Of a DNA stretch of 36,927 nucleotides, positions 32,261 through 36,927 are shown in pieces (position 1 is the first letter of the stretch; each line of letters begins with the position of its first letter). A model generated the notes under the pieces. The model did no database searches, was not told the DNA's origin, and was given only the letters and a program-made list of their open reading frames with translations. A program made the translations under genes and the position numbers. This stretch comes from an uncultured Clostridia bacterium (GTDB taxonomy: Bacteria > Bacillota > Clostridia > Oscillospirales > Ruminococcaceae), in contig CANQNY010000008.1 in assembly GCA_947625335.1 (NCBI GenBank), positions 1 to 36,927 on the forward strand, given 5' to 3'.

Positions 32261-32264
32261 AAAA

Positions 32265-32350
32265 GTTGCCGGAGGTACTTCGTGAGAAGTTGAGAGGGCT
32301 CTGCCCAACTCCTTGAACCTGTTGGTTAAGACCATCGTAGGGAAGGCACA
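32265..32350 (+). promoter_or_regulatory. TPP riboswitch (THI box)
   Basis: All conserved parts are present: a short closing stem (TGCC with GGCA), P2 (GGAG with CTCC), P3 (ACTTC, GTGA, GAAGT), the pyrimidine-sensing TGAGAGGGC with a small extra hairpin, TTGAACCTG, and the pyrophosphate-sensing arm ending in ATCGTAGGGAA. Binding of thiamine pyrophosphate should favour the terminator at 32358-32378 and switch off thiD and thiC. Confidence 0.97.
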
Positions 32351-32357
32351 GTTTGCG

Positions 32358-32378
32358 CCGCCCTATGGGGCGGTTTTT
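32358..32378 (+). terminator. Riboswitch-controlled intrinsic terminator
   Basis: CCGCCC, TATG, GGGCGG, TTTTT, starting 8 nt after the TPP aptamer. It is the expression platform of the switch. Confidence 0.85.
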
Positions 32379-32452
32379 CAGTCGCGCTTTCACCCGCGCA
32401 TTCGGGGAAGATTGCCCTGTTTTGGGAAATGCGCATTAAGGGGGAGCCTGCG

Positions 32453-32531
32453 GGGGGCGGGCGGATTTGCAAAGCAAATCCGTGCCGCCAAAGCGGCGGC
32501 TCCCGCGAAAGCGGGAGCCAAGCCCGCCCCC
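32453..32531 (+). repeat. GC-rich cloverleaf-like palindrome in the thiD leader
   Basis: A 10-bp outer stem (GGGGGCGGGC at 32453-32462 with GCCCGCCCCC at 32522-32531) encloses three perfect hairpins in a row: GGATTTGC/GCAAATCC (32463-32481), GCCGC/GCGGC (32484-32497) and GGCTCCCGC/GCGGGAGCC (32498-32519). The loops are AAA, CAAA and GAAA. It lies in the 216-nt non-coding stretch between the riboswitch terminator and thiD. It is not a tRNA. The rest of that stretch (32379-32452, 32532-32586) shows only a possible long-range pair, GCGCATT with AATGCGC. Confidence 0.65.
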
Positions 32532-32594
32532 GCGCCCCGGGAAATCGTCCGCGCGCGGGAGGCGATACACAAATAATCTTCCGAACGGAGGAGC

Positions 32595-33398
32595 ATGCTG
32601 TTGAAATTTTGTTTAACTGTCGCGGGGTCGGACTGCTCGGGCGGCGCGGGGATACAGGCGGATCTTAAAACGTTCGCGGCGCACGGGTGCTACGGCGCAA
32701 GCGTTGTTACAGCCGTTGTCGCGGAAAACACCCGCCGTGTTATTTCCGTGTTCAATTTGCCCGCAATTGAAGTTGCAAACCAGCTTGACGCGGTTTTTGA
32801 GGATATTGAGATTGACGCGGTAAAGCTCGGTATGCTGCCGAATGCGGAAATAATCCACACCGTCGGGGAAAAGCTTTCGGAATACAAGCCGAGGTTCTCG
32901 GTGTGCGATCCTGTTTTGTCCTCGACAAGCGGGACGGCTCTCTCGGCGGAAAACTCGCTCGACGCATTCAAAAAGTTCATCTTCGCGAATGTCAGCCTTA
33001 TAACGCCGAATATCCCCGAGGCGGAGAAGTTCTGCGGGTTTGAAATACACGGCATACCCGATATGGAAAAAGCCGCGCGAAAGCTGTTTGAATTCGGCGC
33101 GGGAGCGGTTCTCGTAAAGGGCGGACATCTCCCCGGCGACGCTGTCGACGTTCTTTTTGACGGGGAGGAATTCACAAAATTCACGTCCGCGCGGATAAAT
33201 TCCGAAAACACTCATGGGACAGGCTGTACGTTGTCCTCGGCGATAGCCGCGAATTGCGCGAACGGTATGGAGCTTTCCAAGGCGGTGGGTTCTGCTAAAA
33301 ATTACCTCACACAGGCTATTGAAAATTCATACAAGGTGGGAAAAGGCAAAAGCCCCGTAAACCACTTTTACCAAATACACAAAGGAGATTTGTTATGA
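32595..33398 (+). CDS. thiD: Hydroxymethylpyrimidine (phosphate) kinase ThiD
   Basis: 267 residues. Ribokinase-fold enzyme that phosphorylates HMP and HMP-P to HMP-PP. It has the N-terminal [19 protein letters not shown], the conserved VCDPV, and the catalytic [15 protein letters not shown] with C211. ATG 32595 is only three bases after GGAGG; the TTG at 32601 has better spacing and is a possible true start. Its stop overlaps the thiC start (ATGA). It is first in the thiamine operon under the TPP riboswitch. Confidence 0.95.
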
Positions 33399-34909: not shown

Positions 34910-34939
34910 CCATCGGGGCGGGGAGCGCCGCTCCGACTT

Positions 34940-35046
34940 GAAAAATCAGCGAGGGAACCCGTGTTTCGGGGTGAGAGGGCAGAATAGACTGCCGACCGAA
35001 GAATATGCAAACCATATTCTATTACGCCGACGGCGCGCTGATTTTC
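34940..35046 (+). promoter_or_regulatory. Structured thiW leader, candidate riboswitch related to the TPP pyrimidine arm
   Basis: AAAATCAGCG (34942-34951) pairs with CGCTGATTTT (35036-35045) to close a multibranch structure. Inside, in order: GAGGGAAC, hairpin CCCG/CGGG (34958-34970), the string TGAGAGGGC (34972-34980) leading into hairpin GGCAG/CTGCC (34978-34993), GACC, hairpin AGAATATG/CATATTCT (35000-35020), and CGCC/GGCG (35025-35035). The first half mirrors the pyrimidine-sensing half of the TPP riboswitch at 32265; the AACCTG and GCGTAGGGAA elements of the pyrophosphate half are absent. CGGCGCG (35031-35037) can alternatively pair with CGCGCCG downstream, breaking the closing stem. The ribosome site AGAGG lies in a possible small hairpin. 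The ligand is unknown. Confidence 0.5.
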
Positions 35047-35081
35047 ATGGACGCGCCGCGGAGAAAAGAGGATTTTTCAAC

Positions 35082-35639
35082 ATGAAAAAAACAGATCTTC
35101 ACAAGCTTGCAGCAGCGGCGTTTTTGACCGCGCTCGCAGTAGCCGGTTCGCAACTTCAAATCCCGTTATTCGGCGCGAAACTCAGCCCCGTCCAGCACCT
35201 TGTAAACATAATTGCGGGTGTGTACTTAGGACCTTGGTGGGCAATGGGTTCGGGCTTTTGCGCCGCGCTGATACGCAATTTTACGGGTCTGGGGACTCCG
35301 CTGGCGTTTCCGGGATCGATGATAGGGTCGTTTTTGGCGGGAGCAATGTATCATTGGGTATTCAGGAAAAAATCCAACGCCTGGAGATTGCCTGCCGCAT
35401 ATGCGGGAGAGCTTTTCGGAACTTCTGTTCTCGGAGGACTTGCGGCGTACCCGATAGCTTATCTTATTCTGAAAAATAAAGAGGCAACGCTGTTTACATA
35501 TGTTATGCCGTTTTTCTCGTCCTGCGCGTTGGGCACGGTTATCGCGATTATAATCGTAACCGCTATGAAGCGTTCCCGCGCGCTTGACAGAATTTTCGGC
35601 GCAGATGTTGAGTTTAAGACAGACAAGGCGAAGTCGTAA
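35082..35639 (+). CDS. thiW: ECF transporter substrate-binding protein ThiW
   Basis: 185 residues, five or six membrane segments. It matches ThiW, the S component predicted to import the thiazole moiety: LSPVQHLVNIIAGVYLGPWW, RNFTGLGTPLAFPGSMIG, YAGELFGTSVLGGLAAYPIAY. It needs the shared EcfA/A'/T module, not in this window. The neighbours thiM (thiazole kinase) and thiE fit a thiazole-salvage role. ATG 35082 follows AGAGG at about 11 bases, rather far, consistent with control of this start by the structured leader. Confidence 0.9.
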   Translation: MKKTDLHKLAAAAFLTALAVAGSQLQIPLFGAKLSPVQHLVNIIAGVYLGPWWAMGSGFCAALIRNFTGLGTPLAFPGSMIGSFLAGAMYHWVFRKKSNAWRLPAAYAGELFGTSVLGGLAAYPIAYLILKNKEATLFTYVMPFFSSCALGTVIAIIIVTAMKRSRALDRIFGADVEFKTDKAKS

Positions 35640-35732: not shown

Positions 35733-36551
35733 ATGGATAAATTCCAACAAGACGCGGCGGGCACGCTTGAAAAGCTGCGCGACATGCGCCCCGTGGTTCA
35801 TTCTATCACTAACTACGTCACGGCGGGCGATACGGCGAATATGCTTTTGGCGGCAGGTGCGTCGCCGATTATGGCTGACGACCCCGCCGACGCCGCTGAA
35901 GTAGCCGCAGGAGCAAACGCCCTAATGCTGAATATGGGAACGCTCTCCAAAAAGCACGTTCTGGCTATGCTTAACGCGGGGAGAGCCGCAAACGAGCGCG
36001 GCGTTCCCGTTGTTTTCGACCCCGTAGGCGTTCATTTGACGGAATTTCGGCAAAATTCTGCTCTGGAAATTCTTTCCAAAGTAAAAATATCAATAATCCG
36101 CGGAAATCTCTCGGAAATGCTGTTTATGGGCGGAATTCCCGTCAAATCGCACGGTGTGGACAGCTCGGACGCGGAAAACGAGGATCTGAAATTTACCGCG
36201 GCGCGCGAAGTCGCGGGGAAATACGGCTGTATTTGCGCTGTGACGGGCAAAAACGACCTTATTACCGACGGACGGGTGGCTGTGCGGCTCGAAAACGGCA
36301 CGGCTCTGCTGCGGAAAATCACCGGCGCGGGCGATATGACCTCGGCGGTAACGGCGGCGTTCTCGGCGGCGGCTGAGCCGTTCAAAGCGGCGGTTTTCGG
36401 CACGGCGTTTATGGGGATTTGCGGCGAAATAGCCGAAAAATTATCCGAAAACAAGGGAATGGGAACGTTTCGCGCGGAACTTTTCAACGCTGCGGGAATG
36501 AGTGCCGAAACATTCTCCGAAAAGATGAAATTTGAGGTCATAGAGGTCTGA
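35733..36551 (+). CDS. thiM: Hydroxyethylthiazole kinase ThiM
   Basis: 272 residues. It phosphorylates the thiazole alcohol (salvage) for ThiE. It has RPVVHSITNYVTAGDTANMLLAAGASPIM and VFDPVGV. The catalytic loop reads ITGAGDMTSAV with Asp201 where most ThiM enzymes have Cys (TGTGC). Aspartate is the general base of other ribokinase-fold enzymes, so activity is expected. Start at ATG 35733, five bases after GAGG; a longer frame to 35682 has no ribosome site. The 93-nt gap after thiW holds a GGCGG/CCGCC hairpin and a short copy of the thiW end. thiE begins one base after its stop. Confidence 0.95.
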   Translation: MDKFQQDAAGTLEKLRDMRPVVHSITNYVTAGDTANMLLAAGASPIMADDPADAAEVAAGANALMLNMGTLSKKHVLAMLNAGRAANERGVPVVFDPVGVHLTEFRQNSALEILSKVKISIIRGNLSEMLFMGGIPVKSHGVDSSDAENEDLKFTAAREVAGKYGCICAVTGKNDLITDGRVAVRLENGTALLRKITGAGDMTSAVTAAFSAAAEPFKAAVFGTAFMGICGEIAEKLSENKGMGTFRAELFNAAGMSAETFSEKMKFEVIEV

Positions 36552-36552
36552 T

Positions 36553-36927
36553 ATGAATAAAAAAAAGATAGATTACACGCTGTACCTTGTCACGGACAGG
36601 GAACTTATGAGCTGCGAAACCATCGAGCAGTCCGTCGAACGCGCGATAGCGGGCGGAGCGACGGTGGTCCAGCTGCGCGAGAAAAACGCGACATCGCGGG
36701 AGTTTTTCGAGCTTGCGGTTCGCGTAAAGCAGATAACCGAGCCTTGTCAAGTACCGCTTATCATAAACGATAGAATAGACATCTGCATAGCGGCGGGCGC
36801 GGACGGCGTTCATCTCGGGCAGAAAGACATTCCGTGCGATATTGCTCGGAGAATTTTAGGCTCGGAGAAAATCATCGGCGTGTCGGCAGCGACCCCCGCG
36901 GAGGCTGCGAAAGCCCAGCGCGACGGC
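36553..36927 (+). CDS. thiE: Thiamine-phosphate synthase ThiE (cut by window end)
   Basis: 125 codons seen of about 210. TIM-barrel enzyme joining HMP-PP and thiazole phosphate to thiamine monophosphate. Visible hallmarks: YTLYLVTDRELM, GGATVVQLREKNATSREF, LIINDRIDICIAAGADGVHLGQKDIP and IIGVSAATPAEAAKA. The ribosome site GAGG lies in the thiM end and the start is one base after the thiM stop, so translation is coupled. The frame is open to the window edge. Confidence 0.95.
   Translation, partial: MNKKKIDYTLYLVTDRELMSCETIEQSVERAIAGGATVVQLREKNATSREFFELAVRVKQITEPCQVPLIINDRIDICIAAGADGVHLGQKDIPCDIARRILGSEKIIGVSAATPAEAAKAQRDG

Follow-up and report, generated by a model that had tools for sequence, protein, structure and literature searches.

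The window, by which we mean the whole 36,927-nucleotide stretch of DNA analysed here, contains five thiamin genes. By profile search these were identified as thiD (at 32595), thiC (33395), thiW (35082), thiM (35733) and thiE (36553). The TIGR00693 match of thiE (130.9 bits) lies below the cut-off of 145.1; this gene is cut by the window end. ThiW has been described as a HET transporter (PMC6593275). The canonical TPP aptamer of the window is the sole RF00059 match of this genome at E values up to 0.001. The element reported here sits in the gap between thiC and thiW and spans about positions 34913-35045. Its parts and the neighbouring features are given in Table 1. Repeats were seen at two nearby places: inverted repeats, long and rich in GC, in the interval that separates the TPP aptamer from thiD (32434-32545), and short direct repeats (ACTGTAAACTG and similar) directly 5' of the first hairpin of the element, P0 (34884-34909).

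Table 1. Features of the thiW leader and its surroundings; positions are those of the window.
Feature	Position	Strand	Basis
Canonical TPP aptamer before thiD-thiC, head of upstream thiamin genes	32261-32361	+	RF00059, 58 bits (cut-off 54.3)
P0 hairpin, stem 34913-34921/34928-34936, loop with GGAGC (34922-34926)	34913-34936	+	GGAGC hairpin in 110/116 members
Outer helix, 5' strand (TTGAAAAATC)	34938-34947	+	Pairs with 35071-35080; in MFE fold of 34930-35083
P1, 5' strand (AAAATCAGCG)	34942-34951	+	Pairs with 35036-35045; covaries in genus
GGGAA, P2-like 5' strand, GG with CC at 34996-34997, register uncertain	34953-34957	+	GGGA invariant in 103 cores
P3, CCCG-UGUUU-CGGG, pentaloop UGUUY conserved	34958-34970	+	4/4 pairs changed on both sides
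GUGAGAG, counterpart of TPP J3-2 pyrimidine pocket (UGAGA)	34971-34977	+	Same place in 14 TPP loci
P3a, GGCAG/CTGCC	34978-34993	+	4/5 pairs changed on both sides, 99.8% paired
GACCG, P2-like 3' strand	34994-34998	+	Invariant in 103 cores; ACCG required by cutting script
P4, 8-bp hairpin	35000-35020	+	Alignments: position kept in genus, sequence and length variable
Anti-P1 hairpin, CGGCGCG/CGCGCCG, 35036-35037 common to P1	35031-35058	+	Sequence; comparable hairpins in relatives by eye
P1, 3' strand (CGCTGATTTT)	35036-35045	+	Pairs with 34942-34951
Ribosome-binding site AGAGG	35067-35071	+	Sequence
Outer helix, 3' strand, between ribosome site and start codon	35071-35080	+	Sequence; MFE fold
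thiW, ECF S component for thiamin precursor (HET)	35082-35639	+	TIGR02359, 137.4 bits (cut-off 84.35)
thiM, hydroxyethylthiazole kinase	35733-36551	+	NF006830, 276.4 bits (cut-off 180)
thiE, thiamin phosphate synthase, incomplete at window end	36553-36927	+	TIGR00693, E 3.3e-38, 130.9 bits; Pfam TMP-TENI above cut-off

A sequence-only reading of this DNA had described the thiW leader as half of a TPP riboswitch with a new second half. The string TGAGAGGGC, on which this was built, is indeed common to the thiW leader and the leader with the TPP aptamer, and the stems CCCG/CGGG (34958-34961/34967-34970) and GGCAG/CTGCC (34978-34982/34989-34993) are both present. The proposed 10-bp closing stem was found as well, in the form of two overlapping pairings (34942-34951/35036-35045 and 34938-34947/35071-35080). 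The 8-bp hairpin (35000-35007/35013-35020) exists in the window, but it is a variable helix, P4, whose sequence is not conserved. Likewise, the alternative stem CGGCGCG/CGCGCCG (35031-35037/35052-35058) is present but unconserved in sequence, although comparable hairpins are possible in relatives by eye. A CGCC/GGCG turn that was part of the proposal is not conserved in relatives. The leader element itself is real, but it starts about 27 nt upstream of the claimed start, with the conserved hairpin at 34913-34936. The fold of the leader is better than that of dinucleotide shuffles (z -2.8); among 200 shuffles, 3 did as well.

BLAST with the leader matched 12 of 60 relatives besides the own genome, all from one genus. 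Two of these matches were full-length and ten covered a core of 30-33 nt only. An alignment of ten leaders contained the 5' hairpin P0, P1, P3, P3a and the variable P4, with compensating changes in 11 of 28 predicted pairs. With a covariance model (R1), the motif was found in 16 of the 43 genus-level genomes; in the order, 37 of 394 genomes, from 27 of 168 genera, had a match at E up to 0.1 (own genome included in each case). Pattern scanning of named genomes yielded at least 118 stretches, and R1 confirmed the motif, at E up to 0.01, in all 80 loci among the matches listed. Among these listed matches are Faecalibacterium prausnitzii, Gemmiger formicilis, Angelakisella massiliensis, Veillonella, Floccifex porci, Faecalibacillus intestinalis and Roseburia; the carriers belong to Clostridia, Negativicutes and Erysipelotrichia, the class having been looked up for three titles. 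The 125 loci represent 117 distinct motif sequences; counts over 125, 116, 112, 104 or 73 members are counts of loci and include up to 8 repeats. From 116 of the loci, 103 distinct cores were aligned. The other nine did not fit the cutting pattern; some lie at contig ends and four read UACCG (L038, L042) or GACCA (L072, L128). A model built from the 103 cores (R2) matched 6 of 398 genomes of the phylum at 69 bits or more; the next score was 36.6 bits, and 72 of the 398 had some match at E up to 0.1.

Next, the helices were evaluated for covariation. P3 is paired in 100% of the 103 distinct cores, with both-sided changes at all four pairs. For P3 and P3a together, 180 cells were changed on both sides compared with a shuffled mean of 47, and this signal was lost when the partner strand was slid. 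Relatedness alone can beat shuffles, but sliding preserves relatedness and nevertheless fails. The segments GGGA, UGAGAG and GACCG are invariant in the 103 cores (UGAGAG in 103 of 103), which is partly by construction, since the scan and cutting patterns demanded most of these bases. Weaker members found by the model read GGGAG with AUGAGAG or UUGAGAG. P2 consists of GG/CC only and, being invariant, gives no covariation information. P1 reached an ungapped score of at least 6 in 80 of 116 members, against 13.8% of shuffles, and stayed under 6 in the other 36 in this ungapped test. Pairs of P0 showed both-sided changes in the leader alignment A1. A P0 with the GGAGC loop and a stem of at least 3 bp is found in 110 of the 116 members; the GGAGC hairpin is absent from L065 and L099, which have an identical motif sequence, and from L135, and the loop is altered in L053, L117 and L122. 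In one member (G023, L030:1488-1695) the P3 hairpin contains a hairpin-like insertion of about 80 nt, suggestive of a small mobile repeat that has inserted into the loop.

The thiW leader element is a real, widespread and covarying RNA. The sequence-only reading had allowed for a resemblance by chance; this is ruled against by the BLAST and covariance-model matches in relatives and by the covariation of P3 and P3a in 103 distinct sequences. The stems are kept in the thiW leaders of relatives and covary there.

Scanning the leader with RF00059 and with all Rfam families gave no confident match to a known family. At gathering thresholds none of the families of Rfam 15 matched the element. When RF00059 was run on 401 bases with E up to 10, it aligned to 34941-35053 with 15.6 bits (E 1.5, cut-off 54.3), and this alignment places P1, P3, J3-2 and P3a as in the earlier reading. 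In each of 20 loci scanned, no Rfam family matched the motif region at E up to 1. A literature search of limited reach found no paper describing the element, which does not by itself establish its absence from print.

The pyrimidine arm of TPP aptamers has its counterpart in the order GGG-P3-GUGAGAG-P3a-GACC. Ranked below the true members, the best remaining R2 matches were canonical TPP aptamers in the same register, as read by eye in 14 of 14 fetched loci (L186-L199). In these loci the TPP arm reads GGGGAGC-P3-GCUGAGAGG-P3a-CGACCC. With UGAGA directly after P3 (34972-34976 in the window), the layout of P3 and P3a, and a P2-like GG/CC, the pyrimidine arm is kept, in agreement with the idea of half a TPP riboswitch. 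The pyrophosphate arm is missing, as had been proposed: ACCUGA, UAAUGCC and GUAGGGA do not occur in 34998-35045, and none of them was seen by eye in the relatives inspected. The element shares with the TPP riboswitch (RF00059) the arm GGG-P3-(N)UGAGAGG-P3a-CGACC with a P2-like GG/CC of uncertain register, the closing stem P1 and the association with thiamin genes. In contrast to it, the element is without the P4/P5 pyrophosphate arm, has a new 5' P0 with the loop GGAGC, a short P3 of 4 bp with a UGUUY loop, and ACCG instead of ACCC, the last C being replaced by G.

In the TPP aptamer, the T-loop U39-A43 of J3-2, the triple G19-G42-A47 and A41 on G18-C48 contribute to holding the HMP ring; P4, J4-5 and J5-4 contain other bases of high conservation (U59, A80, G60, C77 and G78), and P4 is needed in pyrophosphate recognition (PMC3764141). 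Judged by position, UGAGA, the GG/CC pairs and the A of GACC appear to be kept and the pyrophosphate side appears to be wholly gone; the assignments of single bases we infer. A register with G34955 opposite A34995 would mimic the G19-A47 contact of TPP aptamers. Two further ideas were rejected. A circular permutation of the TPP aptamer was considered because GCGAGGGAA at the 5' end of the core resembles GCGUAGGGAA of the TPP 3' end, but distant members read GCGAUGGGAAG by eye at the place of the TPP P2 strand GGGGAGC. Candidate transitional forms, weak R2 matches before motif-less thiW genes (L230-L232), were ordinary TPP aptamers. The element is related to half of the TPP aptamer and is not matched by Rfam 15.

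Gene context was determined with the five thiamin genes of the window as tblastn queries. For the 125 loci, the first thiamin gene downstream is thiW in 114 and thiM in 3; the contig ends within 500 nt in 7, and none was found for one. Over the 117 distinct motifs the corresponding numbers are 106, 3, 7 and 1. In these distinct motifs the thiW match begins at a median of 55 nt after the motif, and beyond 250 nt in 4. In the order-level sample, 35 of 38 matches lie within 500 nt upstream of a thiW above cut-off. Of the 84 order-level thiW genes above cut-off, 35 have the motif and over half are without it; three motif-less thiW leaders, chosen for a weak R2 match, carried a TPP aptamer alone. 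Exceptions in context came from two genomes of this sample, G143 and G156. G143 has no thiW match, and its motifs stand before thiM-thiE (L054) and before an ABC importer of the PhnD-PhnC-PhnE type (L241:593-3999). In G156 the motif also precedes a PhnD-PhnC-PhnE-type importer (L242:603-4185), and the thiW of this genome is without motif. Judged by its place behind the motif, the PhnDCE-type importer is a candidate non-homologous thiazole importer. A strong terminator-like hairpin lies behind the motif in L242. In the locus for which none of the five genes was found downstream (L122, 7380-7830), an intact motif precedes a truncated thiW-like frame of about 70 codons, read by eye, followed by a gene for a HAD-family hydrolase.

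We also searched the 37 motif genomes for ThiG and ThiC. ThiG gave a match at E up to 0.001 in 18 of them, 15 above a loose cut-off. Only three have a full-length ThiG (E 1e-99); the remaining matches are short and do not exceed 33.5 bits. Therefore, most carriers seem dependent on outside thiazole. ThiC was found in 21 of the 37 genomes and not in the other 16. Several operons have thiD and thiC behind thiW.

The element often stands in tandem with a TPP aptamer. By Rfam, a TPP aptamer lies just upstream on the same strand in 25 of 29 order-level loci (18/20 and 7/9), the 29 being the fetched part of the 38 matches; L039 and L046 have two upstream TPP aptamers. A looser text pattern, which misses seven aptamers found by Rfam, located one upstream in 61 of 94 loci outside the genus of the window with at least 350 nt of upstream sequence. 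Within that genus none of 11 loci has a TPP aptamer within 1.5 kb, and in the window it stands before thiD-thiC. The presence of a TPP aptamer just upstream speaks for a second riboswitch whose ligand is not TPP. A second sensor behind a TPP riboswitch was also the reasoning that led to HMP-PP as the ligand of the thiS motif (PMC6478431). Of 65 loci, 63 had a terminator-like site in the gap that follows the TPP aptamer; behind the motif such a site was seen in 14 of 112, or in 17 when the folded window was extended slightly. Thus the TPP riboswitch probably acts on transcription and the element mostly on translation. In L101 (345-600) the motif is apparently sandwiched between two TPP-like aptamers (text pattern and eye), and in L040 and L050 Rfam places two TPP aptamers on opposite strands, where divergent thiamin operons appear to share an intergenic region.

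P1 of the window (34942-34951/35036-35045) and its anti-P1 hairpin (35031-35037/35052-35058) have bases in common. The outer helix, in its part 34938-34945/35073-35080, can cover the start site around an inner 6-bp P1, as 8 of its 10 pairs are compatible with this P1. Comparable arrangements were seen by eye in relatives, namely AUGAUAC/GUAUCAU in the genus and P1 against the ribosome site in a short-leader clade. Forcing P1 in the window lowered the predicted access of the ribosome site from 0.52 to 0.09, which favours an OFF switch. Across 73 members, forcing P1 raised access in 8 and lowered it in 10 with no trend, 33 further members without a usable P1 being left out; for the family as a whole, folding thus does not support the switching model. 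Pairing between upstream sequence and the ribosome site was enriched against mononucleotide shuffles (29 of 104 members at rank 0.05, 74 of 104 at rank 0.5). This again favours OFF and so fits thiamin or TMP better than HMP-PP, although part of the enrichment may come from the U-tract of the TPP terminator. When the sequence 5' of P0 was tested for duplexes with the entire downstream region, base composition dominated the result (mean -25.9 versus -22.5 kcal/mol with swapped partners). With a T-run behind it, the anti-P1 hairpin of L035, L046 and L048 looks terminator-like, which favours a ligand acting as ON. For the direction of switching, OFF is slightly favoured over ON.

We consider it probable that the element is a second thiamin-pathway riboswitch, derived from the TPP aptamer, that recognises an HMP-bearing ligand other than TPP and acts mostly on thiW translation; ligand, kissing loops and switching we infer. 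The element would have descended from a TPP aptamer by keeping the arm for the aminopyrimidine (HMP) ring and losing the pyrophosphate arm. An added 5' hairpin, P0, would use its GGAGC loop to kiss the UGUUY loop of P3. Binding of the ligand, an HMP-bearing compound of the thiamin pathway other than TPP, would stabilise P1 and thereby set the choice between P1 with the outer helix covering the thiW start and the anti-P1 hairpin. The element would act mostly on translation of thiW, and hence on thiazole uptake, and the TPP riboswitch, usually with its own terminator, would control transcription. This account has weak points in P2, which offers two GC pairs at most that never vary, and in the 36 of 116 members in which P1 scores under 6. 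As ligand, HMP-PP or another HMP form is most likely, though at less than even chances; thiamin or TMP is a lesser candidate, and HET forms and TPP are each improbable.

More tentatively, the element may be a new class in which the pyrimidine arm and a docking 5' hairpin (GAGC with GUUY) would build an HMP-type sensor, most likely for HMP-PP, widespread in Clostridia. It would then form part of a two-input gate, with TPP setting operon transcription and the precursor setting translation of thiW alone. The name of a separate riboswitch class hangs on the ligand.

An ON switch for HMP-PP, analogous to the thiS motif, would open thiazole uptake as the partner HMP-PP accumulates; we regard this as possible but somewhat doubtful. 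The HMP-PP riboswitch controls thiazole genes including thiW, and some 30% of its members are preceded by a TPP riboswitch (PMC6478431, PMC6429828). The element has the same kind of gene behind it and the same tandem order, as the thiS motif is described upstream of thiazole genes including thiW and often directly behind a TPP riboswitch (PMC6478431), and in L035, L046 and L048 P1 competes with the terminator-like hairpin. The architecture differs, however. The thiS motif is a short aptamer embedded in a terminator hairpin, whereas the element comprises several helices in about 130 nt and mostly has no terminator; by eye, the window shows no hairpin ending in a U-run in 34998-35082. By the description of the thiS motif as terminator-embedded, the element is therefore no member of it. 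Unlike the thiS motif (as described in PMC6478431), it is mostly found in genomes without full-length ThiG. An HMP-PP ON switch over a whole operon would also be odd with 16 of 37 motif genomes showing no ThiC and with thiD and thiC behind thiW in several operons; the latter objection is eased by the split between transcription of the operon and translation of thiW. In addition, the outer-helix data lean towards OFF. These data suit an OFF switch for thiamin or TMP instead, that is, a TPP variant freed from pyrophosphate that would shut thiazole uptake once finished thiamin is present. Thiamin and TMP both carry the HMP moiety. P1 can form together with the start-covering outer helices, both in the window and, as judged by eye, in relatives. 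Pairing of the ribosome site with upstream sequence is enriched, and in the window this site is hidden when P1 is forced. A review mentions, from unpublished work, that some RNAs classed as TPP riboswitches prefer thiamin or TMP (PMC9481103). The likeness to these variants would lie in descent from the TPP aptamer and possibly in tandem placement; compared by their description in that review, they are currently classed as TPP riboswitches and the element is not, its score being only 15.6 against a cut-off of 54.3. Moreover, among the fetched loci the element stands almost only before thiW and not before thiamin importers, and we judge an OFF switch for thiamin or TMP to be unlikely.

The remaining explanations carry far less weight. 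A degenerate TPP aptamer that still binds TPP and serves as a second TPP input is highly improbable: the arm is TPP-like, and there are known cases of TPP riboswitches in tandem that share one ligand (PMC9481103), but the elements of the pyrophosphate arm are gone, and a core that is near-invariant over many genera and has conserved parts of its own (P0, UGUUY) is not a product of decay. A sensor of HET or HET-P, substrate or product of ThiW and ThiM, would account for the motif standing with thiW-thiM and, in G143 and G156, with a different importer; since the kept arm holds the pyrimidine ring and not the thiazole (PMC3764141), it is very unlikely. That the predicted folding gives no clean switch would suit a structured leader that is bound by a protein or acts in RNA stability, with no riboswitch involved. 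Against this speak the kept UGAGA pocket, the tandem with TPP aptamers and the near-exclusive link to thiazole genes, and we give this explanation very little credence.

If a second riboswitch derived from the TPP aptamer is correct, a riboswitch class would have been born by swapping one half of a very widespread aptamer, with the ligand half traceable base by base. It would also add an RNA sensor for a thiamin-pathway compound, and with it a regulator of thiazole (HET) uptake in carriers such as Faecalibacterium, Gemmiger and Veillonella. As 34 of the 37 carrier genomes show no full-length ThiG, thiazole uptake likely matters to the carriers. The motif would further mark unrecognised importers, such as the PhnDCE-type system, as candidate thiazole transporters.
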